The notes under the pieces were generated by a model, which saw nothing but the letters and a program-made list of their open reading frames with translations, made no database searches and was not told where the DNA came from. Made by a program: the position numbers and the translations under genes. A stretch of DNA of 64,000 nt from Qipengyuania psychrotolerans (GTDB taxonomy: Bacteria; Pseudomonadota; Alphaproteobacteria; Sphingomonadales; Sphingomonadaceae), in NCBI RefSeq assembly GCF_019711355.1, contig NZ_CP081297.1, positions 434,001 through 498,000 of the forward strand. The letters run 5' to 3'. Position 1 is the first letter of the stretch; each line of letters starts with the position of its first letter. Of this stretch, positions 7,942 to 51,379 are shown in pieces.

Positions 7942-8015
7942 GGTCGTTCACTCCCCCAAGTTCATGCGACCATTTTTATTGCTTGAGGAATATCGGCGGC
8001 GACCAATGTCGTCAA

Positions 8016-8702
8016 TTATTCGGCGGCACTTTCCCCATCGAAGCGCACATTGACCGAAATGTCTTCATAGCCGGCAACCTGGAGCGGGATTGCAAGGTTC
8101 TGGCGGACCGCTTCCTTGGCCGCATTGCGAGCCATAGCGAGAACTTGCGGGTTCTTGGCGAATAGCGCAGCCTTGCGTTCGGCCTGCTGCGAGTTGTTGC
8201 GCGCCAGATCGGTGCTGGCGTCCCGGCTGACATAGGCACCTTCGGTAAAGGTCGCCTGCGAGCCTTCGTCGAGATTGGGGCGCGAAATCTTCAGTTGCGG
8301 CAGGATCACCGTGAGCGTGTCCGAACCATCGTCCCACTGGAAACGGTCCCGGTCCATCTGCGATAAGTCGAGGCGATATTCCACGGTTGCCGGAATGACC
8401 GCCGCCTGCCTGCTTTCGAGCAGGTCGACACCCAGCACACCGCGCCTGTCGACACTTTCAGCGACCACTTCAAAGCGAGAAGAGAAAACGGTCAGCGAAT
8501 TCTGTTTTTCGAAAGCGAGCATGGCACTTGCCACCGGATCGCCTTCTTCCTGATAAAGAAATGCGCGCCAGCCCAGCCACGCCACCGCGGCAATCAGCAG
8601 GATCACGATAAGCCATGGAACGGCTTGCACGCGGGCCAGCGATTTTTCCTTTTGCGCAGCGGGTTCTGTCTGGGTCGCGGTGGGTTTCAGCTTGTCTGCC
8701 AT
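8016..8702 (-). CDS. DUF4230 domain protein, single membrane anchor
   Basis: A 228-residue protein with one N-terminal membrane helix (about residues 27-46, VPWLIVILLIAAVAWLGW) and a periplasmic or extracytoplasmic C-terminal domain of the DUF4230 family. The family pattern includes the TVFSSRFEVVAES strand, a hydrophobic VEYRLDLSQ strand and the helix with NPQVLAMARNAAKEAV. Function of the family is unknown to me. An AGGAGA ribosome site precedes the ATG at 8702. The start lies inside the 3' end of the metallo-hydrolase gene (16-base overlap), so the two are translationally linked. Confidence 0.85.
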   Translation of the reverse strand: MADKLKPTATQTEPAAQKEKSLARVQAVPWLIVILLIAAVAWLGWRAFLYQEEGDPVASAMLAFEKQNSLTVFSSRFEVVAESVDRRGVLGVDLLESRQAAVIPATVEYRLDLSQMDRDRFQWDDGSDTLTVILPQLKISRPNLDEGSQATFTEGAYVSRDASTDLARNNSQQAERKAALFAKNPQVLAMARNAAKEAVRQNLAIPLQVAGYEDISVNVRFDGESAAE

Positions 8703-9559
8703 ATGTCTCCTGAACGCAGAACCAGTCCGCGGCGTTCCAGATCTATCAAATGGGCCATTACGGACATTTCCGCAGCGCGGTGCAGCCGTTCGTCCAGCCC
8801 CTTGTACATTTTCGGCACGAATTCCGACGCCTCGAGCGGTCCTTCACCCAAGTGGCGCAGGATCTGGTTTTCGCGTTGGCGGCGATGGCCGATCATGCTG
8901 CGGACCAATTGGCGCGGCTTTTCAATCGCCTCGCCGTGGGCGGGATAATAGATGCGATCTTCGCGGGCGTAGAGCTTGTCGAGGCTGGCCATGTAATCGG
9001 CCATGTCGCCATCGGGCGGCACCACGACGCTGGTCGACCAGCCCATCACATGGTCTCCGGTAAACAGCGCGCCGCTTTCTTCAAGCGCGAAGCACAAATG
9101 GTTGGAGACATGGCCGGGCGTGGCCACTGCGCGCAGGGTCCAGCCGGGGCCGGTCATCGCTTCGTCTTCTTCCAATACGCGGTCAGGTTCATAGTCGCGG
9201 TCGAAGGACGCATCTGCACGCGGCCCGCTGTCGTCGAGGACAAGCGGGGCGCAGCCCACGATCGGCGCTCCGGTCCGCGCCGCCAATGGACGCGATGCGG
9301 GCGAATGATCGCGGTGCGTATGCGTACACATGATCGCGCAGACGTGCTCGCCGCCAATAGCGGCATCGAGCGCAAGCAGGTGCTCCGGATCGTCGGGACC
9401 CGGATCGATAATCGCACATCCGTCCCCCAGTCCGACCACGTAACTTTGCGTGCCGGTGTAGGTGTATGGTGAGGGGTTTGGTGCCAGAACGCGCCTGACA
9501 AGCGGCTCAAGTTGCAGCGCCTGGCCAGTCGGCCATGGTTTGGGAGGAGGTCCAGCCAT
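8687..9559 (-). CDS. MBL-fold metallo-hydrolase
   Basis: A 290-residue metallo-beta-lactamase-fold hydrolase of the glyoxalase-II/LACTB2-like group. The metal-binding motif THTHRDHSPASR is present, along with the later VATPGHVSNHLCF, LFTGDHVMGW and YYPAHGEAI motifs that supply remaining His/Asp ligands. A C-terminal winged-helix-like tail, with REnQILRHL and the AHLIDLERRGLV region, matches the LACTB2 (thioesterase/RNase-like) subgroup. Substrate is not deducible. It is divergent from glpK and overlaps the start of the DUF4230 gene downstream. Confidence 0.9.
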   Translation of the reverse strand: MAGPPPKPWPTGQALQLEPLVRRVLAPNPSPYTYTGTQSYVVGLGDGCAIIDPGPDDPEHLLALDAAIGGEHVCAIMCTHTHRDHSPASRPLAARTGAPIVGCAPLVLDDSGPRADASFDRDYEPDRVLEEDEAMTGPGWTLRAVATPGHVSNHLCFALEESGALFTGDHVMGWSTSVVVPPDGDMADYMASLDKLYAREDRIYYPAHGEAIEKPRQLVRSMIGHRRQRENQILRHLGEGPLEASEFVPKMYKGLDERLHRAAEMSVMAHLIDLERRGLVLRSGDIWQTS

Positions 9560-9621
9560 GGGGTTGCATATGGGCGGTGAGGCGGTTCATGTCACCTCCT
9601 GCCGGTGAATATGGAGACTAT

Positions 9622-11085
9622 ATGGCTGATCGAATACTGGTTCTGGATGCGGGAACCACGTCAACGCGGGCGATGGTATTCGGCATTGATGGCGAACTTG
9701 AAGCCGTGTCTCAGGCCGATCTGACCCAGCATTATCCCCGGCCCGGCTGGGTGGAACATGATGCGGCAGAGATCTGGGAGAAAACTCTTTCCTGCATGAT
9801 CGAGGCGGTCGGCGATCAGGCAGACCGAATTGCCGCCATCGGCATTACCAGCCAGCGCGAAACTGTGGTCGCGTGGGACCGCAAAACAGCAGAACCTCTT
9901 GCGCGCGCAATTGTGTGGCAAGACCGGCGCACTGCAGAATTTTGCGCTGCGTTGAAGGAGGGCGGTCACGAGCCAGCGATCCAGCGGCAGACTGGCTTGC
10001 TGCTCGACCCCTATTTCTCCGGCACCAAGATGCGCTGGATGCTCGACAATGACGAACAGGTGCGCAGCGCGGCAGCCAGCGGGCGGCTGGCATTCGGCAC
10101 CGTGGAAAGTTGGCTGGTGTTCAAGCTGTCCGGCGGGGACCATGTCTCCGATGCCAGCAACGCCAGCCGGACAATGCTGCTGGCACTGGACGGTGCGAGG
10201 TTTGACGAGGGGCTTTGCGACTTGCTCGGCGTTCCTCATGCAAGTCTGCCCCAGGTCGTCGATACGCATGGTCAATTGTCGGCCACATCCGCGCAATGGC
10301 TGGGCCGCCCGGTTCCGATAACCGGGCTGGTAGGCGACCAGCAATCGGCCACGATCGGCCAAGGCTGCCTGTCCTTCGGAGAGACCAAGGCGACCTATGG
10401 AACCGGCGCCTTCGTGCTCACGAACAAGGGCAGCGACATCCCTGTTTCGGATCACCGCCTGCTCGGCACAGTGCTGCATCAGGGCGGCGGTCAGCGGATC
10501 TACGCAATCGAGGGATCATGTTTTGTCGCAGGCAGCCTAATCCAGTACCTGCGCGATCAGCTGGGGCTTATCGGGAATGCCGCAGAGACCGAAGAACTCG
10601 CCAGATCAATCGAGGATAGCGGCGAAGTTGTCATTGTGCCGGCGCTCGCAGGGCTGGGCGCCCCTCAGTGGCGGCCCGATGCGCGCGGGGTAATCTCGGG
10701 ACTAAGCTTTGCGAGCGGAAGAGCCCAGATCGCGCGCGCAGCACTGGAGGCGATGGCGCATCAAACGCATGACCTGGCCACGGCTTTTGCCGCCGACGGG
10801 GCGCCTTGGGCGAAGTTGAGAATCGACGGCGGGATGAGCGTGAACAACTGGATGGCGCAGGACCTCGCCAACATCCTCGATATCGAGGTGGAACGCCCGG
10901 AATTCGTCGAGACAACGGCGCTGGGTGCAGCCATTTGCGCCGCTGTGGGGGCAGGCATTTATGCAAGCCTGGAAGCAGCAGCGCACGCTATGCGCGGCAA
11001 TGCAGCGCTGTTCCGTCCCCACATGGCGAAAGATGTACGCGAAGGGCGCCTTGACCGGTATGCAAGGGCGCTGGGAGCCGCCTGA
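9622..11085 (+). CDS. glpK: Glycerol kinase GlpK
   Basis: GlpK phosphorylates glycerol with ATP to sn-glycerol 3-phosphate in the cytosol. The FGGY-family signatures are clear: LDAGTTSTRAMVF at the N-terminus, RPGWVEHDAAEIW, the glycerol-binding ITSQRETVVAWD region, the SATIGQGC and ATYGTGAFVL segments, and the C-terminal RIDGGMSVNNW ATP-binding motif. The frame is open from 9535, but the ATG at 9622 (MADRILVLD) has a GGAG ribosome site six bases upstream and matches the family start, giving 487 residues. No glpF, glpD or glpR lies nearby. Its stop directly abuts the stop of the convergent RcdA-like gene. Confidence 0.96.
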   Translation: MADRILVLDAGTTSTRAMVFGIDGELEAVSQADLTQHYPRPGWVEHDAAEIWEKTLSCMIEAVGDQADRIAAIGITSQRETVVAWDRKTAEPLARAIVWQDRRTAEFCAALKEGGHEPAIQRQTGLLLDPYFSGTKMRWMLDNDEQVRSAAASGRLAFGTVESWLVFKLSGGDHVSDASNASRTMLLALDGARFDEGLCDLLGVPHASLPQVVDTHGQLSATSAQWLGRPVPITGLVGDQQSATIGQGCLSFGETKATYGTGAFVLTNKGSDIPVSDHRLLGTVLHQGGGQRIYAIEGSCFVAGSLIQYLRDQLGLIGNAAETEELARSIEDSGEVVIVPALAGLGAPQWRPDARGVISGLSFASGRAQIARAALEAMAHQTHDLATAFAADGAPWAKLRIDGGMSVNNWMAQDLANILDIEVERPEFVETTALGAAICAAVGAGIYASLEAAAHAMRGNAALFRPHMAKDVREGRLDRYARALGAA

Positions 11086-36786: not shown

Positions 36787-38589
36787 CTAACCGGGCAGCG
36801 TAATCGGCCGCGTTTCATATTGCTGCTGCCATTGGTGCACATCAGACAGCATGATCTCGCTTAGACGGCGCAGACGGTCGACCAGGCGGTTATAGCTCAA
36901 ATCATCGCGCGCGAAGGATGATTTGAGCTTGCGAAGGCGCTTGGCAATTGCCGCCGATCGTTCTGCGGTGGCGGCAAAATCACCTTGCATTCGGATGCCG
37001 TACAAAGCTGCGGCCAGTACCGGGAAGAACGCGGTCGCAAAGGTCGTTACTGCTGTCAGGCTGACACCGAACAGATACCCTGTCTTGCCGGGCAGAACGA
37101 CAGTCGAGAGGAACACCAGGCAGAACAGGATCGTGCCGACGAACAGTCCATCGCCAAGCTTGTGCAACCGGTGATTGGTATGCTCCATCATCTTGGCGTT
37201 GTTTTCGTGATAGCCGATCTGGTCGTCGATCAGATGGAGCGCTGTATCACGAACACGGCTCAGGTAATCCCGATCGAGCTGTCCCGGTGGCAGTTCAAGT
37301 TCTCTTGCAGTGGCACGGGCATACCACGTGACCCACCCGGGATGTGTCGTGCCGTCTTCCACATCGCGCAGCTCGAGGCGGCCAAGGGTCGATGACATGG
37401 CCAACAGGCGCAATCTTTCGGCCAAGTGCCTGCGGTCGATCCACATCTGGTGGAAGTCCGATTTGCGCGCGCTGCGGGTGTTGAGGATGATTAGCGAAAT
37501 CACCAGCAGTTCTGCGGCGATCAGGACCACCTTGCCTTCAGGCCAGAACAGTCCGGAAAGGGCGAGCAAGACGGCGACAGCAGCCAAGGCGAAGTTCGTG
37601 ACAAAACTGCTTCTGAAACGCAGCGCGAAATAGCTGGCGGCCATGTCCGCGCGGGCGAACCTGTCGGCGACTTCTTCGTTCAGCCGTTTGCCGAATACGC
37701 CCAGCTCTTTGAAGGGGCGCACCATGGGCATGAAATATTCGCGCATTTCCTCAATCGTAGGAATGCTGAACCGCGTTTTCTTCAGACTGCGGGTGCCGGC
37801 GGCCAGCAGGAGGAGCGGCCACGCAATGCTGTATTGGCGCCGCGTTGGAGCGGGGGAGTAGAATACCTTGAGCGATTCAGCGCCGTTACCGCCCGGGGGT
37901 GCACAGAGCGCTTCGAGCAGCTGCGGCAGTGCCTTGCTGAATTCTACGCGTTCCACACCGTCGATGGATGGCCGGTCGGGGATGTCCGTGTGCAGACCGC
38001 TCCACAGCAACTGCGGCGGGTGGATCTCGTCTGGCCAGACATGAAGCACCGGCACATGACTGGCGACAGCCTGCGCGACAACTTCCGTCGTGCCGCCGCG
38101 CCCGCGCGATGCATCTCCGTCCCACACCGCGATCAGGATATCCGACTGCGCCAGAACAAGTCGGCCGATCGCCTCATAAGCGGCAGTATCGCTGGGAGGG
38201 TGATCGACCAGGGCGACGGTACTGTCGGCGGCTTCGATCAGTGCGCTGGCGCGTGCCCATTCTGCTTCATCGAAATCGAGTGCGTAGTTTTCCGGTGAGA
38301 ATGGCAAGCAAGCTGACAGTGCCAAGCCTTGTTCGATCGCGGCTTCTGCCGCCACTGTGTCCGCACCAGTCGCCATCGCCGAGACCAACCGGATAAGGGG
38401 TTCCTCGTCGGAGAAGACTTCGTGATGCCGTGCGAACAACTCGTCCAACGCTCCCTTGCTCTGAGCAAAGATGTTGGCGCAGCCGTGGCGAACCGCGTCA
38501 TATCGATCCCTGGGGAGTCGGGGAGGGCGATGCCCTGTCACACCGAAGCGCAGTGTGAGGCGCGGTTTCAAATCGAGTATTTCGCGCAT
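36787..38589 (-). CDS. SLOG-like Rossmann protein with four membrane helices (SLATT/DUF4231-like)
   Basis: A 600-residue protein. The N-terminal part (about residues 10-190) is a Rossmann-like domain with FGVTGHRPP (15-23), SAMATGADTVAAEAA and GRGGTTEVV (163-171). These signatures recall the SLOG superfamily of nucleotide-sensing domains described in conflict systems. Then come a helical stretch and two membrane helix pairs (about 330-370 and 481-530), with a long charged helix between them and one after, which recalls SLATT-type 2TM effectors. It directly follows the TIR-TPR gene (TAG immediately followed by ATG), so the two are one operon. The SLOG and SLATT assignments are by eye and tentative; no enzyme function is claimed. 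Confidence 0.7.
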   Translation of the reverse strand: MREILDLKPRLTLRFGVTGHRPPRLPRDRYDAVRHGCANIFAQSKGALDELFARHHEVFSDEEPLIRLVSAMATGADTVAAEAAIEQGLALSACLPFSPENYALDFDEAEWARASALIEAADSTVALVDHPPSDTAAYEAIGRLVLAQSDILIAVWDGDASRGRGGTTEVVAQAVASHVPVLHVWPDEIHPPQLLWSGLHTDIPDRPSIDGVERVEFSKALPQLLEALCAPPGGNGAESLKVFYSPAPTRRQYSIAWPLLLLAAGTRSLKKTRFSIPTIEEMREYFMPMVRPFKELGVFGKRLNEEVADRFARADMAASYFALRFRSSFVTNFALAAVAVLLALSGLFWPEGKVVLIAAELLVISLIILNTRSARKSDFHQMWIDRRHLAERLRLLAMSSTLGRLELRDVEDGTTHPGWVTWYARATARELELPPGQLDRDYLSRVRDTALHLIDDQIGYHENNAKMMEHTNHRLHKLGDGLFVGTILFCLVFLSTVVLPGKTGYLFGVSLTAVTTFATAFFPVLAAALYGIRMQGDFAATAERSAAIAKRLRKLKSSFARDDLSYNRLVDRLRRLSEIMLSDVHQWQQQYETRPITLPG

Positions 38590-40281
38590 CTAGCTGGTCA
38601 CGCTCTCAGTTACCCAATGCTGATCTGACCACTCGCAGAATTCATCGCATTGATCCAGTTGTCCGAACCAGCGCCTGAGGCGAAACTTCAATGTTTCCTG
38701 GGTCGCCTGGGTGTCATGTTCGCGCATTCTTTGCAGGTTCTGCCGCGCCGCGTGCGGATCACCTTGCAGCATATCCACAAGGAACAATCCCAAATAGGCT
38801 GCCCCGTTGATGTGATTGAGGCCGATTGAATATTCGTACTCTTCGCGCGCCTTGTCATAATCGCCCCGGCGCAGATGTACGCTGCCGCGCCAGGTACGGG
38901 TGGCGAATTGCGTGTGCGCTCCGGGTGCGCCGATCATCTCCAGCTCGAACTGTTCGAGAGCTTCATCGTGATTGCCGAGCAAGGCATAGGCGATGCCTGC
39001 ATTGTAATGAGCCAGGCCGAAATTCGGGCTTCGCTGGAGTGCGCGTTCTGCGTAAATCAGCGCGTCTTTGGGCTGGCCAATGTAATTATAGGCTTCGGCA
39101 ACGTGCGCCAGAACCATGGGGTTATCCGGGTCCAAGGCAAGTGCGCGTCCGATCTCGCCGTTTATCTTTGCCACGGTTTCCGGATCGTCGGGCATGACAT
39201 GCATGTAAATCGTCGCGTTAGCGTCGGCCAGCATCGCATGGGCGAGCCCGTAGGAAGGCGCGATTTCGACCGCTTGCTGTGCGTCCTGCAAGGCCAGCAT
39301 CAGCGTTTCACCAGTAATCTGGCGGTAATTGGCGACTGCCCGGGTCACCATTTCCCAGGCCGTAAGATTGTCCGGCTTCTTGAGCGCGTGTTCCATTTCC
39401 AGACGATTGACCTGGGAATTGAGATGCGCGGCCACTTCGATGACCAGGTCTTCTTCCAGCTCGGCCAGTTCTTCGAGCGGTCGTTCGAACTTCTGTGTCC
39501 AGAGGATCGTGCCGGTGCCGGCATCCAGCAATTGTGCGGTCACGCGGAGCGTTTTCATACGTCGCCGGACGTTGCCTTCGAGAATGTATCGCACGCCCAG
39601 GCTGCGGGCCATTGATTCGATGTCGGCGATTTCGCCATCGCGGAAGCGAGCGATGGCACTGCTTGAAATGACCCGCAATTCCGCGGCCTGCGACAATGCG
39701 TCGATAACGTCTTCGACAAGTCCAATGGCGAAGACTTCGTCGTCTTCGATGCCGGACCTGTTCTTGAATGGCAGAACTGCCAGCGATGGCAATTCGCCTT
39801 CCCGTTCGGCCGGTGGTGTCGGCGCAGCCATGGCTGGCGACGGCGGAGGGGGCGAAGCTTGCTCGGGTTCCGGTGAAGCCTGGTTCTTGCGGCGTTCGAC
39901 AACCTGACGAATGTCCGCAACGAAGCCGCGCCAACGCGTGTTTGCCGTGTCGCCGTCCCAATTGGTCAGGTCGGCTGTTTGCGTCAGCTCGAACATGATC
40001 GGGCGTTCGCACTGCGATATCATCGCCGGGACCAGCGCTCCGTGCCGGTCACCGATCGTGGCCTCGGACCTTACCCAGCGTGACTGGACCGATGTCGCCG
40101 ACCATAACACCACGACAGCAGGAGCTTGCCTCAGCGCCTTTTCGATAACCTCGTCGTAGGTGTCGCCGGAACGCAGCGTTTCATCCCACCAAACCTCAAA
40201 GCCTTCGCTCTTGAGGCTGGCGGCCATATGGCGGGCAATGTCTTCGTCCGCTCGGCCGTAGGATATGAACAGGTCGTGCAA
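38590..40281 (-). CDS. TIR domain - TolB-like - TPR protein, probable TTG start
   Basis: A 563-residue protein. TIR domain at about residues 1-110 (DLFISYGRADED, EVWWDE, VVVLWSATSVQSRWVRSE). Glu73 lies where active TIR NADases carry their catalytic glutamate. After a proline-rich linker (about 137-160) follows a TolB/FlgO-like domain (LAVLPFKNRSG ... RYILEGNVRR, about 165-290) of the kind found in adenylate-cyclase-type TPR proteins. Several tetratricopeptide repeats follow (about 300-520). The only usable start is TTG at 40281, with a GGGGAAG site nearby; no ATG precedes it in frame. The SLOG-like gene follows with no gap. Cytosolic, no signal peptide. Confidence 0.85.
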   Translation of the reverse strand: MHDLFISYGRADEDIARHMAASLKSEGFEVWWDETLRSGDTYDEVIEKALRQAPAVVVLWSATSVQSRWVRSEATIGDRHGALVPAMISQCERPIMFELTQTADLTNWDGDTANTRWRGFVADIRQVVERRKNQASPEPEQASPPPPSPAMAAPTPPAEREGELPSLAVLPFKNRSGIEDDEVFAIGLVEDVIDALSQAAELRVISSSAIARFRDGEIADIESMARSLGVRYILEGNVRRRMKTLRVTAQLLDAGTGTILWTQKFERPLEELAELEEDLVIEVAAHLNSQVNRLEMEHALKKPDNLTAWEMVTRAVANYRQITGETLMLALQDAQQAVEIAPSYGLAHAMLADANATIYMHVMPDDPETVAKINGEIGRALALDPDNPMVLAHVAEAYNYIGQPKDALIYAERALQRSPNFGLAHYNAGIAYALLGNHDEALEQFELEMIGAPGAHTQFATRTWRGSVHLRRGDYDKAREEYEYSIGLNHINGAAYLGLFLVDMLQGDPHAARQNLQRMREHDTQATQETLKFRLRRWFGQLDQCDEFCEWSDQHWVTESVTS

Positions 40282-40369: not shown

Positions 40370-43300
40370 CTACGCCTGCCAGAGGACCTTCCCGGGGTAG
40401 ATCGTCATATCGTAAGCCAGTTTGACGCCGTGCACCTTTTGCTCCGGAGCAATCCCGAAATCTGCGGCGACCGGAGAACTGTCGAGGTGATCCAGCACCA
40501 TGTCGAATGTGACCAGTTTCGGGAAAGCGTCGAACTTGGTGACTTCGCCAACCGCCTCCGTGATGGCCTGATAACAGGCAAGATTGCCGTCATGGACATC
40601 CCGGAACTGTTTCAGGAACAGCTGCGGCACCTTGCGGTGGAACGCGTCGCCGAGGATTTCCAGATCCAGGCCAAGGCTACCATGCCAACCCTTATGGCGG
40701 CTTCCCATGTGATGATGGAGCGCCTTCACCGCGTCACCGAAGCCGCCGATCTTGCTGAGAACGCTGCTGTCCTTTTCGCCCGGATTGCTCAGGGTGAGAA
40801 TTCTGTGCCGTTCCTGCCGCGCATCTTCGCCGAACGACTTGGTCGCGAACAAATCGACCGAAAGCGTGCCAGCGGCGTTGCCCTCGTCAGTGGGGAGGGT
40901 GATCCAGCCCTTCTGCTTCTGGTAACCGAAGATCTCACGTCCCGACGCAATGGCCACGGGATTGTCGAGCACGAGATAGGGCATGACCATGTCGAAATGG
41001 GTGGCCACTTCCTTGCCGCCGCGCTCTTCGATACGCACAGCCGGGATCCAGAAGGTCAATTCGCGCTCTGGCGACCAGCCCATCTTGGGTTCATCGACAA
41101 ACCGGCCTGTGTGGATGTCGACGATGGTCATCATCATCATGGATGACATGGGCCGCACGCGGACTTGCCCCCCGCTGGGTTCATCGAACATGCGGCGGCA
41201 ATAGGATTCCATCAGGGCGTAATCCGCCTCCAGCAAGAATGCCCACATGGTGGTATTGTCGAGTGTAATATTCCCCGGAAAGGTCGACATGCCCGGATGC
41301 ACCACAAACTTGCCCGGACCATCCGACGAACGGGATGGATATTCTGCCTTGGTCAACGCCTCTGCGTCGACCCCGCGAATGTCGGTCGGGAATTTCGAGA
41401 TTGCATGGCTGGCGAGCATTCCGGAAATTGTGCTTGCCTCGAACGAGCCGAGGTTTTGCCCGTTCTGGATCCAGTCGCCGGTAAGGTAGAGGTTTGAATA
41501 GGTCGAACCGCTTGCCGTCATCCGGTGCTTGGTCGAATTGCGAACCGTCAGAGTGTAGCGTTCGCTCGGATCGATATTGGCGCGGTTGTACTGACTGCGC
41601 AGTGTCCCGCGATGGGGGCCGCCGGGACCAAAGCCGTTGCCCCAGAAGTATGAGCCTTCATCGTCAAGAAATTTCTTGGCAATTTCCTCCACACGTTTGA
41701 GTTCGCGGGCAGGAAATTCATAATCCGATGATGGCGGTAGCGTATCCTTGCAGGGCAGCGGACCGCACATGATCTGTTCGGATACGACCTTTGCTTCGGG
41801 CGGCCATTCTTCGGTGGCAACCACCTCGGTGATATCACACCACGTATTGAGGTTTACCTTGTCATAGGCACCGACGAGAGAGGGTCTGCACCAGCCAAGG
41901 CCGTGTTCCTTCTTGTCCATCCATGTCTGGAGGTTTTGCGTCGCCGTGCTTTTGATCGTGTTGTTGAACCTGCGCCACTCCGGCTTCTGGGCGATAAGGT
42001 CACGGCAGATGATCGGATGCGCAGCTGGCGGGATGGCCAGCACGAGAGCATCGTAATCGTCACCGCTGCGCAAGGTGAGAGGGGGAAGGGCGTCCTTCCA
42101 CTGGGTCCAATGGGATTCCAGGTCTGCTCCCGATGCCTCAAGCGCGGCGCCGTCCTCGATTTGTTTATAGAGCGGGCGATCCGGCCAGACATATTGGCCG
42201 CTTTTAAGCTGCTTGAGGGGTTTGTAGCTATTGCCGGTAAGCTTTACCTGGCGGCCCAATTCGACCGCTTCGATTTCCCCGCCGTCAGCGGATGGCACAA
42301 GGCGGTCGACGCGGTGAAAGAATTCCACTTTCACCCCGCGCTGCTTGAGCACTTCGTAGATCGGCTGAACGATGGCATCGCCCGTGGCGCTGTTGAACTT
42401 CCAGATGATCGAACCCTGGTAGGTGGCCGTATTCATCAGGGAGACGACCATCGTCCCCGCCTCAACTTCGCCGTGACGCGTCCAGTCGCCCTGGGGATAA
42501 GCGAAGATCAGATCATAAAGGCTGCGGATTATCGCTGAATTGACCGTGAGTTCGTCTGCACCATGAGATGTCAGCCATTCGCGATAGTCGAGCTGGTTGA
42601 CGCGTTCCAGATTTCCTTCCGGGTCGAACAAGAGCCCGTCGCGCAGCGATCCTATCAAGCTGGACAGGCCCAGGTCCGCGCAGACCCAGAAGTGGCGCAG
42701 CTGGTCATCGGTCTCAAGCAATGGACGCGCACGGCGCTGGATCCAGCTTCGCAATCCACCAAGGATTTCTGCCAGCATATTGTGATGGTGTGCGCCGTGC
42801 TTGCGCGGATCATCGATCAGGGTCTGCGCCACTTCCAGCGCCTCCTTGACCAAAACCGTGACCGCCTCGGCGACGAGATGCTCGATCCCCAGCAATAGCC
42901 GGGTAAGCATCCTGCGCCACCATGACAGTCCGGAAAGGTCAGGGTGGTTCGAGAAGGTCTCGCCGTGGGTGCCCAGAACCTCGCTCTCAATCCATTCGAG
43001 CACTTGCACGACCCGGCCCCAAAGGTCAGGCGCCTGGTCGATCCCAGGTGTGCCGGGCATGACGGGCACAGAGAACTCCCAAGGCGACTGATAGTCCTTT
43101 TCGCGGTCCATCAGGGTGAGCCGGTCCACCTTGGTGAAGGCCTTGTCCCATGTCTTGAAGTGCAGGTTTTTGGCCTCGCCATAGGCTTCCTGAACCATCT
43201 TGAAGGCATTCTGGTAGGCGCCCATGAATACGTGCAGCCCGTGTTCCTGAATCCTCTCCCCATGATCAGGATTGCGGCCCGTCGCGCATTTCCCGCCCAG

Positions 43301-43423
43301 CCGCCACCCAAGCTGGTAGATCGTGATGTCATATTTGCCGCGCTGCTCCGGCGCGCTCAGGTAAAAGGCGGCAACGACGCCCGACAGGCCGCCTCCCAGA
43401 ATTGCGATGCGTGTTTTGGTCAT
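40370..43423 (-). CDS. FAD-dependent desaturase-like protein fused to an acetoacetate decarboxylase-like domain
   Basis: A 1017-residue fusion. The N-terminal part (about residues 1-640) is a FAD/NAD(P) amine-oxidase/phytoene-desaturase-like domain: ILGGGLSGVVAAFYLS, GWRLGGKCATGR, EHGLHVFMGAYQNAF, and near its end LYLTGDWIQNGQNLGSFEASTISG. The C-terminal part (about 690-1017) resembles acetoacetate decarboxylases, with YLVLDNPVAIASGREIFGYQKQKG around the family's Schiff-base lysine region. The upstream neighbour is a CruF-like carotenoid gene, with an ATGA overlap, so carotenoid modification is the likely context. The joining of these domains is unusual, and the reaction cannot be named from sequence. 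Confidence 0.8.
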   Translation of the reverse strand: MTKTRIAILGGGLSGVVAAFYLSAPEQRGKYDITIYQLGWRLGGKCATGRNPDHGERIQEHGLHVFMGAYQNAFKMVQEAYGEAKNLHFKTWDKAFTKVDRLTLMDREKDYQSPWEFSVPVMPGTPGIDQAPDLWGRVVQVLEWIESEVLGTHGETFSNHPDLSGLSWWRRMLTRLLLGIEHLVAEAVTVLVKEALEVAQTLIDDPRKHGAHHHNMLAEILGGLRSWIQRRARPLLETDDQLRHFWVCADLGLSSLIGSLRDGLLFDPEGNLERVNQLDYREWLTSHGADELTVNSAIIRSLYDLIFAYPQGDWTRHGEVEAGTMVVSLMNTATYQGSIIWKFNSATGDAIVQPIYEVLKQRGVKVEFFHRVDRLVPSADGGEIEAVELGRQVKLTGNSYKPLKQLKSGQYVWPDRPLYKQIEDGAALEASGADLESHWTQWKDALPPLTLRSGDDYDALVLAIPPAAHPIICRDLIAQKPEWRRFNNTIKSTATQNLQTWMDKKEHGLGWCRPSLVGAYDKVNLNTWCDITEVVATEEWPPEAKVVSEQIMCGPLPCKDTLPPSSDYEFPARELKRVEEIAKKFLDDEGSYFWGNGFGPGGPHRGTLRSQYNRANIDPSERYTLTVRNSTKHRMTASGSTYSNLYLTGDWIQNGQNLGSFEASTISGMLASHAISKFPTDIRGVDAEALTKAEYPSRSSDGPGKFVVHPGMSTFPGNITLDNTTMWAFLLEADYALMESYCRRMFDEPSGGQVRVRPMSSMMMMTIVDIHTGRFVDEPKMGWSPERELTFWIPAVRIEERGGKEVATHFDMVMPYLVLDNPVAIASGREIFGYQKQKGWITLPTDEGNAAGTLSVDLFATKSFGEDARQERHRILTLSNPGEKDSSVLSKIGGFGDAVKALHHHMGSRHKGWHGSLGLDLEILGDAFHRKVPQLFLKQFRDVHDGNLACYQAITEAVGEVTKFDAFPKLVTFDMVLDHLDSSPVAADFGIAPEQKVHGVKLAYDMTIYPGKVLWQA

Positions 43424-44385
43424 GCGAGTTCACCTTCGGGCAGGTGCAGTTCGCTGCTTTCGACATCTCCCTTGGAAGGCCAAAGCGGCAAGTCTGTTCG
43501 GTTCGAGAAAAGGTGGAATGCTGCGAAAAATGCAGGAATGCCCATCACGAAAGGCGAGATGAGGTGTACATCCTCGATTTCCGGATAGCCGAGCCAGGTG
43601 TCGATGATTGCCATGCTTGCGTAAATGCCAACCGGGATCGAGATCATGAGCCGCGAATTCATGCCGGCTGCAGGCTCCAGCGGCAGTTTTCGCTCGACCA
43701 GTCGGTAAGCGAAAAACACCGTGAAACTGGCAATCAACCAGCCGCGGAAATTGAGCAAGGGTACGCCGAAGTGCGGCCCTGGCTGGGTCCACACCCAGGC
43801 GGGATGACCCACTTCGCCTGGGTCAAGCTGCGGCGTAAGGCACTTGAGCTCAGAGTTCTGGCAGGGGTGGTAGCTCATCACGGGATCCATGGTCAGGTCC
43901 CAGGCCGTCATCACCATAGCGCTCAGGATCGACAGCCAGATGATTGGCACGATGCCGGTCCGGCGAGATACGGGGCCACCTTCGGCAATAAGGTTCGTGA
44001 TGATGTAGCTGGGGTAGAACATCATGTACCAGGCCAGCGGGATCAAATAGGGGATGCGTCCGAAGGCCTTGTAGCCAAGCACGTGAGTGTAGAAATAGTC
44101 GCCGAAGATCAGGCCGGTGCTTTCTCCGACATACTCGAAGCAAAATGAAATCAAGACGGCCATGCCGAACAGGGTGAGCGCACGCTTGCGGCCAAGCAGG
44201 AGTATCGAATGTCCCAGGCAGACTGCGGCAGCACTCGGGACCAGGATATCCCAGGGGATGCGTTCGAGCGGCATGTTGAAGCCGCCGGTACGTATGCCGA
44301 CGTAAAAGACGACAATCGTCAGTATTGTCAGGATAAGCCAGACCGCGGCGGGGATTCGCCCGACCCTACTGGATACTTCCCCCAT
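43420..44385 (-). CDS. Carotenoid biosynthesis protein (CruF/DUF422-like)
   Basis: A protein of 321 residues with about eight membrane helices. The DUF422/CruF family pattern FEYVGESTGLIFGDYFY is present, followed by PYLIPLAWYMMFYP and AWDLTMDPVM. CruF-type enzymes hydrate terminal psi end groups of carotenoids. The frame runs open to 44472, but GGAGGG lies five bases before the ATG at 44385 (MGEVSSRVG). It overlaps the start of the FAD fusion gene by four bases, so the two form one operon. Substrate is not established here. Confidence 0.85.
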   Translation of the reverse strand: MGEVSSRVGRIPAAVWLILTILTIVVFYVGIRTGGFNMPLERIPWDILVPSAAAVCLGHSILLLGRKRALTLFGMAVLISFCFEYVGESTGLIFGDYFYTHVLGYKAFGRIPYLIPLAWYMMFYPSYIITNLIAEGGPVSRRTGIVPIIWLSILSAMVMTAWDLTMDPVMSYHPCQNSELKCLTPQLDPGEVGHPAWVWTQPGPHFGVPLLNFRGWLIASFTVFFAYRLVERKLPLEPAAGMNSRLMISIPVGIYASMAIIDTWLGYPEIEDVHLISPFVMGIPAFFAAFHLFSNRTDLPLWPSKGDVESSELHLPEGELA

Positions 44386-44548
44386 AAAATCCCTCCGCAT
44401 GAACCGGCGAATTTCGCCAAATGTCCTTGCGACCCAAGTGCGACATCGTAGGTCCATGCATTTGAAAAGCAAGCAACAGCCGGTTCTCCGTTAAACCGAG
44501 GCGACGCATTCGCTTGCTGATCATGGGAAAGGCTGGTTAGACCGTTAT

Positions 44549-46510
44549 ATGGTTGACGATATCAGCCCTGCTCCAAGGCCGGATGTTTTCGTAAGCTATG
44601 CGCGAGGCGATGAGCCGCGCGCGCGCCAATTGATAGCCATCCTCGAAAAAGATGGTTTTTCCGTCTGGTGGGACGGGAAGCTGGAAGCCGGCGCCGAATA
44701 TTCCAACAAGATCCAAGAGGCGCTCGAAACAGCCAAGGCTGTGGTGGTCTTGTGGAGCAACACGTCCCTGGCTTCGAATTGGGTTCGCGACGAAGCCGAA
44801 GCTGGACGTGACCGGTCAACATTGGTGCCAGTGTCTCTTGATGGCTGCCTGCCGCCGCTCGGTTTCCGCCAGTTCCAGGCGGTCGACATGTCGCAGTGGA
44901 AGGGCAAGGCAAACGCTCCCGCAGTTAAGGAGGTGCTTGCTGCGGTTCGGCACCTGACCGAGCGTGACGATGCCGAAAGCGCTCCTGCTTCGCCTGCATT
45001 CCTCGCCAGGTCGGACGTCCAACCGCCGGTCGGCTTCAGGGCCAGATTATTCGGCCTGATCGCTGCCGCAACGCTGGTTTCGGCGGGGGCCTGGGCATGG
45101 CTGGGCGCCGACGATGATGCGGAAGCAAACAGCCTTGCAATCCTGCCCTTCGAAAACCTCAGCGGTGATGAAAATCAGGACTATTTTTCGACCGGACTTG
45201 GCGAAGAAGTCCGCCAGGTCCTGAGCCAGAGCGCCGAGATGCGCATCGCGGCGCAATCATCGACCCAGACTGCAGCAGATGAAGACAAGTCACCCTCGGA
45301 AATTGCTGATCACCTAGGGGTCAGGTATTTGCTGGACGGCAGCGTGCGCCGCGATGGCAACATGGTCCGCGTGTCGGTCAGTCTGATAAATGGCGCCGAT
45401 GGATTCGATATCTGGTCGCAATCATACGACCGTGACCTCGACGACATCTTTGCGGTGCAGTTGGAAATCGCAGAGCAGGTTGCGCAGGCCCTCAAGGTGC
45501 AGATCGTTGCAGATGGCGACGGCACTGCATCGCGTATTGGCGGTACCACAAACACAGTTGCTTTCGACGCCTATCTTCGCGGCAAGTCGCTCTACGAACT
45601 TGCGCTCAATGAGGAAACCGATCGCAATGCGGCTTCGCAATTGAAATCGGCTGTGGCTGCCGACCCGGAATATGGTGCTGCCTGGGCCGCCTTGTCGACT
45701 GTCCAGACCACGCTGGCCAACATCTATACCAGCGATCGGCCGCGTTCAGAACTTTATGGCGAGGCCATCGCATCAGCCCGCAAGGCCATCGAAGTTGCAC
45801 CGCAACTGGCGGAAGGGCACGCTGCGCTCGGCTATGTCCTGCTCAACGGAAGCCTCGATGCAAAAGCTGCCAGCGGACCATACCGTCAAGCTTACGCACT
45901 TGGGCAGAATGACAGCGGTGTCCTGCAATCATATGCATCCTACACATTGCGCACCGGCGATACCGAGCAGGCTCTTCAGGCGATAGATCGGGCGATTGCC
46001 CTTGATCCGCTCAGCGCGATCCTTTTCCGAATCAAGGCGCAGATCTTGGTGATCCGCGGCGATTTCGATGGAGCGCGGAAAGCGATCAGGAAAACGTTCG
46101 AGCTGAATCCGGACATCAGCGTAGCGTACCGCGTTCTGGGCAATATCGCCTATCTGGAAGGTGACTACCGAAAGGCGCTTGCTGCTTTTCAGAAGGAGGG
46201 CAGCGCGCTCAGCAGGCTACCCGGACTGGCGGTAAGTCATGCGAAGCTGGGCAATGACGTTGAGGCTGCTGCCGCCATGGCAGAGCTGCAGGCCGAGTAC
46301 GGCGACAATGGCCTCTACCAGCAGGCCCAGGTTCTGGCACAGACCGGCGAAACGCAGCGTGCCCTGGATATGCTGGAGCGAGCATTTGCTGTCGGAGATT
46401 CCGGACTGGTCCTGGCGCGCGGCGATCCGATGCTGAAACCGCTGCGCGGCGATGCACGGTTCAAAGCCCTGTTGAAGAGAATGGGCTTTACCGCTCCGCC
46501 TTCGGAATAA
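44549..46510 (+). CDS. Membrane-anchored TIR - TolB-like - TPR protein
   Basis: A 653-residue protein. TIR domain about residues 11-130 (PDVFVSYARGDE, SVWWDGK, VVVLWSNTSLASNWVRDE, with Glu82 at the probable catalytic position). A single membrane helix follows at about 170-190 (LFGLIAAATLVSAGAWAWLG). Then come a TolB/FlgO-like domain (LAILPFENLSGDENQDYFSTGL ... RYLLDGSVRR, about 200-320) and tetratricopeptide repeats (about 340-640). It is a paralogue of the TIR protein at 38590-40281, but that one lacks the membrane helix. Its 3' end overlaps the convergent CHAT gene by 23 bases. With the TIR inside, the TPR part would be periplasmic. Confidence 0.88.
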   Translation: MVDDISPAPRPDVFVSYARGDEPRARQLIAILEKDGFSVWWDGKLEAGAEYSNKIQEALETAKAVVVLWSNTSLASNWVRDEAEAGRDRSTLVPVSLDGCLPPLGFRQFQAVDMSQWKGKANAPAVKEVLAAVRHLTERDDAESAPASPAFLARSDVQPPVGFRARLFGLIAAATLVSAGAWAWLGADDDAEANSLAILPFENLSGDENQDYFSTGLGEEVRQVLSQSAEMRIAAQSSTQTAADEDKSPSEIADHLGVRYLLDGSVRRDGNMVRVSVSLINGADGFDIWSQSYDRDLDDIFAVQLEIAEQVAQALKVQIVADGDGTASRIGGTTNTVAFDAYLRGKSLYELALNEETDRNAASQLKSAVAADPEYGAAWAALSTVQTTLANIYTSDRPRSELYGEAIASARKAIEVAPQLAEGHAALGYVLLNGSLDAKAASGPYRQAYALGQNDSGVLQSYASYTLRTGDTEQALQAIDRAIALDPLSAILFRIKAQILVIRGDFDGARKAIRKTFELNPDISVAYRVLGNIAYLEGDYRKALAAFQKEGSALSRLPGLAVSHAKLGNDVEAAAAMAELQAEYGDNGLYQQAQVLAQTGETQRALDMLERAFAVGDSGLVLARGDPMLKPLRGDARFKALLKRMGFTAPPSE

Positions 46511-49127
46511 TCCCGTCAATATCGATGCGGCTGGTCTCACCGGGGGCGAGGCATTTGTCACCGAGATCATATGTTGCGATCGATCCGTACGGGATTCCCA
46601 GATTATCTGCCAAATCTCGCGAGAATTCTTGAAGGTCCAGCGTCGACCCTTCTTGCGAGACGGAGTGCGAAATTGTGACAGGGCCCTGACCTTGGTATTC
46701 ATACCCTTCGAGCGCCCCAACTGCGCTGGCGTCCGTGATTGAAAGGTCGGCGGGGTAATCGTAACAGTACGGTTCGAGGATCACCTCAACGCGCCTGTTC
46801 GCCTCTTCGACCATGCCGTCAGCAGTGGGGATCAAGGGCGCGCTTTCGCCCATGCCGACAAGCTGGACGGGGCCAAGATAACCTCCCGAATGCACCTGGA
46901 AATCATCGGCAACACTTCGTGCCCGTTCGAGCGAGAGTCGTTCGTTGTAGTCGCTTGCTCCCGCAGTGTCGGTGTAGCCGACAAAGGTCACTGCGCTAAT
47001 GCCTGCACAGTCATCGGAAAGCTGCCTGGCCTCGGTGTAAGCCGATCGCGCGGCATCCGGAACAGCGGTTTCGTCAAAGCCAAAGTTGGTTTCAAACAGC
47101 ACTTTTGCGCAGGGGACGGGAGCGGGTAACTCATCGGTGACCGGGGTATAGGCTGGCTCCGGTACGGCCGTGTCGGCTTCCCGCGCGGCATCGCTCACAT
47201 AATATTTCGTATTGGTCGTGGTCACTCCGCCAACGGTGTATGGCTGGCTGGCAAAACCGCCGCCACCGCCAATGATTTGCGGCTGACCTGCATAGCCTCC
47301 GCCACCTCCGGCCGGATATGCCTGGCTCGGATCGCCTGCAGAGTACGTGTATGATCGGCTTGCGACACGAGTGGGCGCGTCATTATCGCCGCCGATAACG
47401 ACAGCACCCTGATCGGAGAAAAACCTGCTCGTGCCATCTTCGTAGGTGAGTATGAAGCCGTTGACACCATCTCGCGTCGCTGGTTCCTGACTGACGATCC
47501 TGGGGCCTGCAAGAATGCCGCCACCAATCACACCTTCGCCGATCAGGGTTCCTGCCGTCCGAGGCGGCGGAGGTGCAGGTGGCGGTGAGGCAGAAACGGG
47601 TCTCTGTATTTCGGGCGGCACATCACGATTACGCGGCGCGACATTTGCCAGCACTTCGCGAGGAGACTGGTTGACCGGTGTAGTGACCTGCGGGGTTTCT
47701 TCAGCGAGGGAATCTGCTGCCTCGTCTACCGGTTCGGCAGCTTGCGCGACTGGATTGTTGGCGCCGTTAGCAGTTGGCTCGGACCCATTACTAGCGCCGC
47801 TAGCGATTTCTCTGGCTTCGTTGAAATTGCGGAAAATGTTCAGCAAATCGTCGGAGGTCGCAGACACTGTGCCGATAATCCCGACGATCGATGCGCCGAT
47901 CAATCCGCGTTGTATGCCTTTTCGCTTGAGCAGGCCGCCTTCTTGCGCCTCGGCTTCACCGGCTCCGGCCACTGCCGGGGCGGCTTGGCTTTCCACAAAG
48001 GCGATGCGATCGGTCTCGCCAGAGGTGTAGAGCGCGGGGGTGATCAGCTCGACCTGCGTGCGTTCGTCGTCATCGCTGGCAATTGCGCAGCGGCCCAAGG
48101 TCACAGCGCTGGCGATAGTCTCACCGCGTATGAGAGCGGTGTAGAATTCCTGGCTGAAATTGATGGCCGCATCGTCGGAAACCGGCTGCTGCATTCCGAC
48201 AACGAACGGGACATTCAGGCGCTGGAGCAGGTTCTGCGCCACACCGGCCATCGGTTCATCGGCTGAAGTCTGCCCACTCTGGCAGGAATTGAGCACCACC
48301 AGCCACGGCCGGTAATTGAGCAGCATATTGCGCAGCGTTTCCGCACTGAGCTTGTCGCCGACGCCTTCTTCGCCGGTTTCGAAAGCGAGATAGCCGGCGC
48401 CATCCTTGAACCCGCTATGACCGATGTAATGGATGACATGGGGCTGCCATTCGCTCAACGTCTGGCGGAAGTCCTCTCGGTTGACCGCGGGCAACGACCG
48501 GATTTCGAATTCGCCGTCCTTGGCCGCGACGAGATTGTCGATGCGCTTGCTGATGTTGCCAAGCTCGACATCGGTTTCGAGATCACGCCACGGGTTCGCA
48601 GCGGCCACGAGAATCCTGATCGGCTTGCTGGCGGGCGGTGGCAGCTCGCTTTGCGCGTCGAGTTTCCTGACAATATTCGACGTGGTGCCGATCGCCAGAA
48701 AACGGTCGTGCGATTTCAGATACAGTGCTTCCCACGGGACGCCTGAAAGTTCGGACGCTTGGGAGAGATCAATCTCGATCTCGACACCGTCATTGTCCGC
48801 AATCCGGTCTTCAAGCGCGCCAAGGATTTTTGGGCCCTCGGCGGAATTGTTCAAGTCGAACACGCTTTCCAGAACGCGTTCGCCGATGTCTTTTAGGGTC
48901 GGCAGATTGCCAGCCTGGAAAAACCGGGCCTCGGGCGTCAGTTCGGCGGCATTGCTGCGGAAACTGCGCGTCGTGCCGGCGGTTTGATCGCTGGCTTCCC
49001 ACAAATCGGAAATATCAGGCGGCAATCTCGTGCGGAACCGGTGCACTGCACCAGAACGCCTGACGGTGACATCATACTCACCATCACCAAAGGGCACGAA
49101 TGCGATGTTCCAACGCTTCTTGCTCAC
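46488..49127 (-). CDS. CHAT caspase-like protease fused to an OmpA-like peptidoglycan-binding domain, GTG start
   Basis: An 879-residue protein. The CHAT domain covers about residues 70-380. The catalytic pair is visible as His237 in HYIGHSG and Cys282 in VVLNSCQSG, followed by VPFVVGMQQPVSDDAA. A probable membrane segment is at about 408-425 (GLIGASIVGIIGTVSA). A long Ala/Pro/Gly/Ser-rich linker (about 440-680) follows, including PPPAPPPP and Gly-rich runs. An OmpA-like domain (about 680-820) follows, with VGYTDTAGASDYNERLSLERA and NRRVEV, and then a tail. This would place protease inside and peptidoglycan binding outside. GTG at 49127 is the start. The short repeat-protein gene lies just upstream on this strand. 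Confidence 0.88.
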   Translation of the reverse strand: MSKKRWNIAFVPFGDGEYDVTVRRSGAVHRFRTRLPPDISDLWEASDQTAGTTRSFRSNAAELTPEARFFQAGNLPTLKDIGERVLESVFDLNNSAEGPKILGALEDRIADNDGVEIEIDLSQASELSGVPWEALYLKSHDRFLAIGTTSNIVRKLDAQSELPPPASKPIRILVAAANPWRDLETDVELGNISKRIDNLVAAKDGEFEIRSLPAVNREDFRQTLSEWQPHVIHYIGHSGFKDGAGYLAFETGEEGVGDKLSAETLRNMLLNYRPWLVVLNSCQSGQTSADEPMAGVAQNLLQRLNVPFVVGMQQPVSDDAAINFSQEFYTALIRGETIASAVTLGRCAIASDDDERTQVELITPALYTSGETDRIAFVESQAAPAVAGAGEAEAQEGGLLKRKGIQRGLIGASIVGIIGTVSATSDDLLNIFRNFNEAREIASGASNGSEPTANGANNPVAQAAEPVDEAADSLAEETPQVTTPVNQSPREVLANVAPRNRDVPPEIQRPVSASPPPAPPPPRTAGTLIGEGVIGGGILAGPRIVSQEPATRDGVNGFILTYEDGTSRFFSDQGAVVIGGDNDAPTRVASRSYTYSAGDPSQAYPAGGGGGYAGQPQIIGGGGGFASQPYTVGGVTTTNTKYYVSDAAREADTAVPEPAYTPVTDELPAPVPCAKVLFETNFGFDETAVPDAARSAYTEARQLSDDCAGISAVTFVGYTDTAGASDYNERLSLERARSVADDFQVHSGGYLGPVQLVGMGESAPLIPTADGMVEEANRRVEVILEPYCYDYPADLSITDASAVGALEGYEYQGQGPVTISHSVSQEGSTLDLQEFSRDLADNLGIPYGSIATYDLGDKCLAPGETSRIDIDGIIPKAER

Positions 49128-49175: not shown

Positions 49176-49382
49176 CTACCTGTCGGAATCGTTGCCGCGG
49201 AAGTTCCTGTCGCCGTCGTTACCTCTGAAATTCCTGTCGCCGTCATTTCCGCGAAAGTTACGATCGCCGTCATTGCCGCGAAACTGGCGGTCGCCGTCGT
49301 TTCCGCGCTTTGCACGATCATCAGCGGGTTTGTCGGAATTATCCTTGGCGCCATCTCCGCCAACAGGCTTCTTATCTGTCAT
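49176..49382 (-). CDS. Nonapeptide-repeat protein GNDGDRxFR, upstream of the CHAT gene
   Basis: A 68-residue hydrophilic protein. Residues 1-26 are Lys/Asp/Gly-rich, then GNDGDRxFR occurs four times, followed by GNDSDR. It has no signal peptide or membrane helix and is probably disordered. GGAGG lies about eight bases before the ATG at 49382. Frame extension to 49433 is possible but lacks a ribosome site. It is 48 bases before the CHAT start on the same strand, so cotranscription is likely. The arginine-rich repeats make it a possible CHAT protease substrate, but there is no direct evidence. Confidence 0.7.
   Translation of the reverse strand: MTDKKPVGGDGAKDNSDKPADDRAKRGNDGDRQFRGNDGDRNFRGNDGDRNFRGNDGDRNFRGNDSDR
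49179..49304. repeat. 27-base tandem repeats inside the nonapeptide-repeat gene
   Basis: About 4.7 copies of a 27-base unit encode GNDGDRxFR in the minus-strand gene. The copies differ by synonymous and a few amino-acid changes, so the array is not a very recent perfect duplication. Confidence 0.8.
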
Positions 49383-50672: not shown

Positions 50673-51379
50673 GCGCTTGCTCCCTTTCGAGTGCCCTGAG
50701 TGACATGCTCAACCAGACCATCGCGGAATTGCACGATCGTCCGCGCAAACTCGGCCATCTCCTGTTCGTGGGTTACCATCAGAACGGTAATGCCGGTTTC
50801 GCTCAAATTGCTGAGCAGTTCCATGATCTCGATTGAGCGTTCGGTGTCGAGATTTCCGGTCGGTTCATCTGCAAGCAGGACATCCGGGTCCGAAACAAGC
50901 GCGCGGGCGATGGCAACGCGCTGCTGCTGGCCGCCCGACAGTTCTGCCGGAGTGTGCGACGCCCAGGGCAGCAAACCGACCTTGTCGAGCGAGCGTTCTG
51001 CCGCCTCGCGGCGCGCCTTCTTGGTTTCACCGCGGTAGAGCAATGGCAATTCGACATTTTCCAGCGCGGTTGTGCGGGAAAGCAGGTTGAAGCCTTGGAA
51101 CACGAAGCCGAGATAGCGGCGGCGCAGCAAGCTTCGCTGGTCGCGCGTAAGCGACTGCACTTCCACGCCGCGAAATTTGAACGTGCCGCTGGTCGGCGTG
51201 TCGAGGCAGCCTAGGATATTCATGGTCGTCGACTTGCCCGAACCTGATGGGCCCATGATGGCAACGAAATCGCTGCGCTCAATGGAAAGATCGACACCTT
51301 TGAGGGCCTGGAACGCAGCGGGTCCAGTGCCGAAGGTCTTGGTGATCCCTTCAAGTTCGATCAGGATTTCATTGCTCAC
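50669..51379 (-). CDS. ABC transporter ATP-binding protein (MacB/LolD type)
   Basis: A 236-residue ATPase. Walker A is MGPSGSGKST, the signature motif is LSGGQQQRVAIARAL, Walker B is VLLADEPTGNLD and the switch histidine is in VTHEQ. The sequence is typical of MacB/LolD/FtsE-like exporters. It partners with the adjacent permease gene, translated by overlap. Operon order is outer-membrane factor, adaptor, ATPase, permease. Confidence 0.95.
   Translation of the reverse strand: MSNEILIELEGITKTFGTGPAAFQALKGVDLSIERSDFVAIMGPSGSGKSTTMNILGCLDTPTSGTFKFRGVEVQSLTRDQRSLLRRRYLGFVFQGFNLLSRTTALENVELPLLYRGETKKARREAAERSLDKVGLLPWASHTPAELSGGQQQRVAIARALVSDPDVLLADEPTGNLDTERSIEIMELLSNLSETGITVLMVTHEQEMAEFARTIVQFRDGLVEHVTQGTRKGASA

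Follow-up and report, generated by a model that had tools for sequence, protein, structure and literature searches.

A CHAT-OmpA protease gene of Qipengyuania psychrotolerans, its RGNDGDR repeat-protein neighbour and a TIR-TPR gene: a candidate three-gene module

The window analysed here is a stretch of 64,000 nucleotides from Qipengyuania psychrotolerans (contig NZ_CP081297.1, positions 434,001 to 498,000). It contains a gene that joins a caspase-like CHAT protease domain to an OmpA-like domain. A small gene encoding tandem RGNDGDR units lies directly upstream and a gene encoding a TIR domain and TPR repeats lies downstream, and the same three-gene order is found in Altererythrobacter xiamenensis. 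We read the three genes, at a confidence that falls slightly short of an even chance, as a module made of a wall-moored CHAT protease, a repeat protein acting as its substrate or ligand and a TIR-TPR effector. The original prediction, made on the window from its letters, had dealt with the CHAT-OmpA gene; the tandem-repeat gene and the conserved TIR-TPR gene were absent from it and are the stronger clues to function.

Domains and topology of the CHAT-OmpA protein

The gene and the parts of its product are as follows (positions in the window).

46488..49127, minus strand: CHAT - membrane segment - linker - OmpA-like gene, 879 codons, GTG start
48066..48776, minus strand: CHAT domain, residues 118-354 by Pfam; fold about 1-380 by model and fold comparison
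48417..48419, minus strand: codon of catalytic His237, from the alignment (23/23 sequences)
48282..48284, minus strand: codon of catalytic Cys282, from the alignment (23/23 sequences)
47859..47915, minus strand: predicted membrane segment, residues 405-423, Kyte-Doolittle mean 1.39, basic flank toward CHAT
47148..47858, minus strand: Pro/Gly-rich linker, mostly of low model confidence, with a small beta element at 544-571
46794..47084, minus strand: OmpA-like domain, residues 682-778, by Pfam
46491..46769, minus strand: further C-terminal segment, residues 787-879 with Cys788 and Cys859, conserved in close relatives by alignment

Both domains named by the original prediction are real. The Pfam matches exceed their cut-offs (CHAT, PF12770, residues 118-354, E 6.2e-27, 95.2 bits against 24; OmpA, PF00691, residues 682-778, E 5.1e-7, 30.4 bits against 27.2) and are in agreement with an AlphaFold2 model and with fold comparison. 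The model is confident at about residues 1-380 and 670-879, and its pLDDT is below 50 at residues 381-541 and 574-628. The confident N-terminal part resembles the folds of SAVED-CHAT, Csx29 and separase; the C-terminal one resembles OmpA-like domains, one of which was crystallised with a diaminopimelate peptide. His237 (in HYIGHSG) and Cys282 (in LNSCQSG) stand where they had been predicted and are invariant in the 23 aligned sequences, the window protein included. At an E-value of 0.01, Pfam detected CHAT and OmpA only in this protein, with neither TPR nor SAVED.

OmpA-like domains hold diaminopimelate through an Asp and an Arg residue. This pair corresponds to D720 and R735; the Asp column is kept in 18/23 aligned sequences and the Arg column in 22/23. 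As the alignment shows the Asp to be lost in homologues P0010 and P0012-P0014, the C-terminal part varies across the CHAT homologue group. The residues that follow the OmpA domain (787-879) are conserved and confidently modelled and include two conserved cysteines (Cys788 in 11/23 and Cys859 in 12/23 aligned sequences); Pfam at E 0.01 gave no match for these 93 residues.

The hydrophobic segment that had been proposed between the two domains is well supported in the homologues, 22/22 of which carry a segment with a mean of at least 1.6 right after the CHAT domain, and is marginal in the window protein itself (1.39). A placement of the two domains on opposite sides of the membrane, as originally suggested, is the most likely arrangement. 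A signal peptide was not seen by eye, and the basic flank KRKGIQR sits on the CHAT side of the membrane segment. In addition, Cys673, directly before the OmpA match, and Cys707, within it, are present in 14/14 close sequences and 17/23 overall, which fits a periplasmic disulfide. Combined, the basic flank, the two conserved cysteines and the hydrophobic segment of the homologues make it likely that the CHAT domain lies inside and the OmpA-like domain outside the inner membrane.

The RGNDGDR repeat gene and the TIR-TPR gene

The two neighbouring genes have the following positions.

49176..49382, minus strand: RGNDGDR repeat-protein gene, 68 codons, 48 nt upstream of the CHAT gene; counterpart at A. 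xiamenensis L039 7759-7965
49179..49307, minus strand: five tandem units RGND[GS]DR, 27-nt period, the array running to the stop codon
49391..49395, minus strand: GGAGG, likely ribosome-binding site of the small gene, read in the sequence, at a suitable distance
44549..46510, plus strand: TIR - membrane segment - TPR gene, 653 codons, convergent with the CHAT gene, whose end it overlaps by 23 bp
44585..44905, plus strand: TIR domain by Pfam, with Glu82 aligned with a Glu of the solved TIR 7uxr_A

The small protein begins with MTDK, continues with a polar stretch and ends with five RGNDGDR units, the last one being RGNDSDR, separated by two-residue spacers. In A. xiamenensis, where the CHAT-OmpA gene occupies 8001..10664 of locus L039, a 68-codon open reading frame (ORF) lies 35 nt upstream; it also starts with MTDK, carries six RGNDGDR units and terminates on the motif, and a purine-rich AAAAGGGGGAAG is found at the site corresponding to the GGAGG. 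The spacer is [QN]F in the window array and [QKR]M in the A. xiamenensis array and the core is the same, which points to a stronger constraint on the core than on the spacer. All 11 in-register units of the two arrays fit the motif. Among their 77 core codons, 31 deviate from the consensus, 30 of them synonymously, compared to the 24% synonymous changes expected from random single changes. The binomial value of 4e-18 for this bias is overstated because the units are related copies chosen by their peptide motif; the direction is clear, and the repeat core appears to be under coding constraint. Neither this product nor its A. xiamenensis counterpart was returned by protein searches at E <=10, and for this reason the small gene seems to have been missed by annotation. 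A scan for sigma-70 promoters and terminators gave nothing above shuffled sequences.

Tandem copies of the motif are very rare. RGNDGDR, in any codons, is present in 43 of 397 family genomes and in tandem in two of them only: the window genome and G377, whose array is identical in protein sequence to the one at A. xiamenensis L039. Among 30 loci inspected from this search, two were the arrays and 28 were single matches in other frames, one of them (L053) within a 249-codon frame rich in R, N and D and another (L047) of dispersed-repeat type; 13 of the 43 genomes, with single matches given without a locus, fall outside these 30. Both features were searched for in 249 of the 397 genomes (G000-G248), G377 being searched for CHAT separately, and the only close match listed in the 249-genome CHAT-OmpA search was the window's own. 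In a sample of the class, the motif was found in 15/385 genomes, as an array in the window genome and as single copies in other frames in the other 14. Within the window genome, no copy of the GNDGDR coding motif occurs outside the array.

A profile search retrieved relatives of 57-58 residues, P0083 (E 7.8e-10) and P0084 (E 4.4e-8), which start acidic, continue with a basic stretch and close with two FRGNDGDR units; P0080 and P0082 are similar and belonged to the searched profile, so that their E-values are circular. P0087 (E 6.6, retained by eye) ends with three RGNDRDQ units. The motif forms the chain end in 7/7 small proteins, the two genomic ones included, and the residue before the Arg is F, M or V in 22 of the 23 units of this set; as the regular expression used to define these units requires R, G and the last D, the invariance of those residues is partly by construction. 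RGNDGDR is also found in P0008 and P0009, two mutually close members of the 22 CHAT homologues, in the linker about 30 residues past the membrane segment; when the P0009 linker was shuffled 200,000 times, it arose once. P0081, P0085 and P0086 were excluded from the relatives as likely translations of dispersed repeats. A Collagen match of the small protein (E 0.0036 and 2.5e-4, below the Pfam cut-off) was discarded as an effect of composition, and a calcium repeat of RTX type, which the 9-residue period might suggest, was dismissed by eye, Pfam at E 1 giving none. No credible match was found for P0084 in plasmids or phages, nor for P0087 in plasmids.

The 653-codon protein on the other side combines a TIR_2 match (E 1.3e-22) with TPR by Pfam. 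Its Glu82 aligns, in 7uxr_A, with the Glu that is catalytic in TIR NADases. Weak matches to ThsB, the TIR component that accompanies ThsA in Thoeris, were obtained in the window (E 4.7e-4 and 3.5e-3). The A. xiamenensis orthologue is 55% identical over 643 residues and is likewise convergent, 20 bp from the CHAT-OmpA gene. The three-gene order is thus common to two genera, in 2/2 readable close CHAT-OmpA loci. Further out, the two loci have different genes. Upstream in the window lie a MacB-type permease (Pfam) and genes recognized by eye as ATPase, HlyD-like and TolC-like (ORFs 49464-54187); at the A. xiamenensis locus, an autotransporter-like ORF of 732 codons, rich in repeats, and an ORF resembling a cytochrome oxidase were recognized by eye. 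The three genes therefore stay together while their surroundings change. The MacB-type exporter genes were left out of the module, being absent from the locus in A. xiamenensis. For the TIR-TPR protein, a model from the single sequence was poor (mean pLDDT 46.8) and was left unused.

Proposed mechanism, known systems and alternatives

In the proposed mechanism, the CHAT cysteine protease would face the cytoplasm from the inner membrane and would be moored to peptidoglycan by one membrane segment, a long flexible linker and the OmpA-like domain. The 68-residue RGNDGDR protein, also cytoplasmic, would be its dedicated substrate or ligand; this is suggested by its adjacency in the two readable close loci, by the linker motif of P0008 and P0009 and by the coding constraint. 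The protease may bind the repeated motif and would probably cut at the Arg within or after it, several short peptides being consumed or released per chain. Separase and gingipain R (1cvr, by its PDB title) prefer Arg, so that a cut at Arg would fit. The membrane-spanning TIR-TPR protein would act as the partner effector, probably as an NAD+-degrading suicide enzyme. The trigger would likely be a displaced wall anchor, upon envelope damage, phage entry or lysis, and the module would be of a suicide or defence type. We consider the complete chain doubtful: loss of tension or integrity in the peptidoglycan would lead CHAT to cut the RGNDGDR protein, with its five or six near-identical units, into short peptides, and the resulting signal or the loss of the protein would unleash the membrane TIR enzyme in a three-part suicide system. 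Many bacterial CHAT and caspase-like proteases lack an identified trigger and substrate; in this case the sequence alone suggests both, a wall-binding input and a repeat-protein target. If true, this would connect wall integrity with a TIR effector and a caspase-like switch and would make RGNDGDR a searchable tag for further members.

ZorB of Zorya and proteins of the MotB type are inner-membrane proteins that an OmpA-like domain anchors to the wall. A weak ZorB match to the CHAT-OmpA protein was obtained (E 8e-5); unlike in these anchors, the cytoplasmic part is a protease domain and no ion-driven motor partner was identified. DdvA, a transmembrane anti-sigma factor (8rw5, 8rot), is another membrane CHAT protein, known here by its PDB titles alone. 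The original statement that no wall-tethered system had been described was too strong, in view of HetF and of C14 metacaspases with peptidoglycan-binding domains. HetF is reported to be a membrane CHAT protein that is located at the divisome and has the septal wall synthase FtsI as an interaction partner (PMC8406250). It resembles the window protein in combining CHAT with one membrane segment and is tied to wall synthesis through FtsI; it differs in having TPR in place of OmpA, and the window protein scores 39.2 bits against a cut-off of 1200 for the NCBIfam equivalog. As to the metacaspases, a 2012 survey counts 11 prokaryotic C14 members with a putative peptidoglycan-binding domain (PMC3501461). 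Together with those carrying amidase or CHASE2 domains, they are alike in joining a caspase-fold protease to a wall or extracellular sensor part; they differ in being C14 and not CHAT, and the part of the survey consulted places OmpA in 14 operons and reports no fusion (PMC3501461). Csx29 and Csx30 form a CHAT protease with a dedicated substrate (PMC10028731); compared to this Craspase, in which Csx29 is TPR-CHAT, the window protein lacks a TPR match and has a membrane segment and OmpA, and the partner is a short tandem-repeat protein. SAVED-CHAT proteins of type III CRISPR and CBASS are reported to act in a cascade of proteolytic activity (PMC11229360); the window protein has no SAVED domain, and its PADLOC match covers the CHAT part only, at model positions 102-255 of 498. 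CHAT has also been placed with TIR in putative conflict systems (PMC10907252). A full-text literature search, which covered few subscription journals, found no paper on CHAT with OmpA and peptidoglycan, nor on RGNDGD. Membrane CHAT proteins, CHAT proteases with dedicated substrates and wall-binding C14 metacaspases are already known, and the new element is the repeat-protein partner.

A number of observations weigh against the proposed module. The triplet was seen in two genomes only. We compared nine CHAT loci (L039, L040 and L080-L086) over about 2-8 kb on each side; the repeat gene and the TIR-TPR gene are both missing from all of them but L039, the eight others being a second A. xiamenensis CHAT gene and seven more distant ones. 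Clear conflict genes stand beside one of the four other CHAT-OmpA loci (G005, G532, G453 and G487), whose neighbours were scanned in G005 and G532. The best 19-residue Kyte-Doolittle mean of the window protein, at 405-423, is marginal for a membrane segment. Of the 23 repeat units, 18 have Arg at the last position and 5 have Gln, so that a cut after the last Arg would not be general. The linker motif of P0008 and P0009 is predicted to be periplasmic, apart from the cytoplasmic CHAT domain. Finally, a common dispersed repeat of bacteria, when translated, gives the same [FM]RGNDG start, and look-alikes need care.

The last point bears on the possibility that the neighbours are incidental, the small ORF being derived from a dispersed repeat or untranslated, the TIR gene a bystander and CHAT-OmpA acting alone. 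Such a dispersed palindrome encodes [FM]RGNDG, and P0081, P0085, P0086 and the family-search match L047 do look of that type. However, the array is without an inverted repeat, the single repeat core that was tested is absent from the window, the genome has no other GNDGDR coding-motif copy, the synonymous bias is strong, an ORF of the same length stands at the same place in two genera, and the profile relatives reach E 7.8e-10 and 4.4e-8; we therefore hold this to be improbable. Rather unlikely, and still clearly better placed, is a repeat protein that acts as an inhibitor or as a multivalent scaffold docking several CHAT domains, inactive or clustered, with the linker motif of P0008 and P0009 as a built-in version. 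Securin holds separase inactive, and separase is among the closest folds. Near-identical tandem units would favour binding by avidity, 7/7 small proteins terminate exactly with the motif and the motif recurs within two CHAT-OmpA chains; yet, should the predicted topology hold, a linker motif in the periplasm is out of reach of an active site in the cytoplasm, and the present data do not separate binding from cleavage.

Two further explanations leave suicide or defence aside. CHAT-OmpA might be a house-keeping regulator of the envelope or of division that follows wall synthesis through OmpA and adjusts division or repair, in the manner of HetF, a CHAT protein with one membrane segment that is reported to sit at the divisome and to need FtsI (PMC8406250). 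The HetF model matches the CHAT part (E 2.8e-10), but far below the family cut-off (39.2 bits against 1200), the distribution is patchy (CHAT in 1/60 genomes of the genus), and TIR, nSTAND1 and C14 caspase genes are neighbours in the few loci read, which leaves this explanation slightly less likely than an inhibitor or scaffold. The least probable of all is a multi-copy peptide precursor, a signal or of a kind like ribosomally made modified peptides (RiPP-like), in which a polar leader would precede core repeats that CHAT releases for export. A leader and C-terminal repeats are found in the 7 small proteins, and the MacB-type permease (Pfam) lies directly upstream in the window with the ATPase, HlyD-like and TolC-like genes (by eye). 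The exporter genes are, however, absent at the A. xiamenensis locus, where the 732-codon autotransporter-like ORF is seen by eye; the eight window proteins scanned include no modifying enzyme, and the units are very hydrophilic.

Distribution of the fusion and further genes

The survey of homologues that had been proposed showed that the fusion is not unique to the window. A protein search against 5.8 billion proteins gave at least 79 matches at E <=0.001 among 7992 scored candidates, and the first 23, window protein included, form a group with CHAT, a membrane segment and a C-terminal domain. By precomputed annotation, PF00691 accompanies PF12770 in 16 of the 22 other members (it is lacking in P0006, P0010, P0012, P0013, P0014 and P0019). 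The close orthologues include P0003 of Qipengyuania zhejiangensis and P0006 of Aurantiacibacter hainanensis. Both domains are above cut-off at L080, L082 and L083 (genomes G005, G532 and G453), bringing the total to at least 19 relatives with both; the combination is not due to chance. The OmpA match of L084 is slightly under the cut-off, and Pfam gave none at L081, L085 and L086. The CHAT ORFs of L083 (G453) and L084 (G487) are longer, with 1228 and 1276 codons, and include an OmpA region.

A genome search with the full-length protein matched 227/249 genomes, mostly through other OmpA-domain proteins, and later genome searches were for this reason made with the CHAT part only. The CHAT gene is rare and patchy: at E <=0.001, matches were found in 1/60 genomes of its own genus, 6/114 in the genus of G377 and 13/397 of the order, and the source genome has a single match. 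A third close locus was found neither in the order search (397 genomes) nor in three further genera (1, 11 and 40 genomes), and no close relative of CHAT-OmpA was found in viral contigs. The 75 matching plasmid records are all below 60% identity, and three phage records match partially, two of them through the OmpA domain. A scan of genome contigs with the single CHAT-OmpA protein gave no match; with the alignment, it gave A. xiamenensis twice and one distant CHAT protein.

The partners of CHAT vary among the other loci. In G005 (L080 7486..17001), CHAT-OmpA heads a tight run, with short or overlapping gene borders; the other genes of the run encode a C14 caspase with a DUF7379/hydrolase-like part attached, another CHAT protein and an nSTAND1 ATPase. 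In G003, a CHAT protein without an OmpA match is followed by an nSTAND1 ATPase, and in G532 CHAT-OmpA is followed by a DUF7379 protein. Neighbours were scanned in these three of the seven genomes behind L080-L086, the others being G453, G487, G057 and G094; on so few loci, the genes suggest conflict-type systems whose partners change. In A. xiamenensis, the second CHAT protein (L040, about 8040..10019) has a membrane segment by eye and no OmpA by Pfam; its predicted C-terminal part differs, as if the outer domain had been swapped.

Elsewhere in the window, a second TIR-TPR protein (38590..40281, minus strand) is only 31% identical to the A. xiamenensis protein. Its gene abuts, within 36787..40281 (minus strand), a gene with a weak SLATT_1 match (E 1.2e-6, below cut-off), and the two possibly form a separate TIR and SLATT pair. 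Between them and the module, 40370..44472 (minus strand) holds carotenoid-type genes, CruF-like and desaturase-like, and the C-terminal part of the desaturase-like protein weakly matches acetoacetate decarboxylase.
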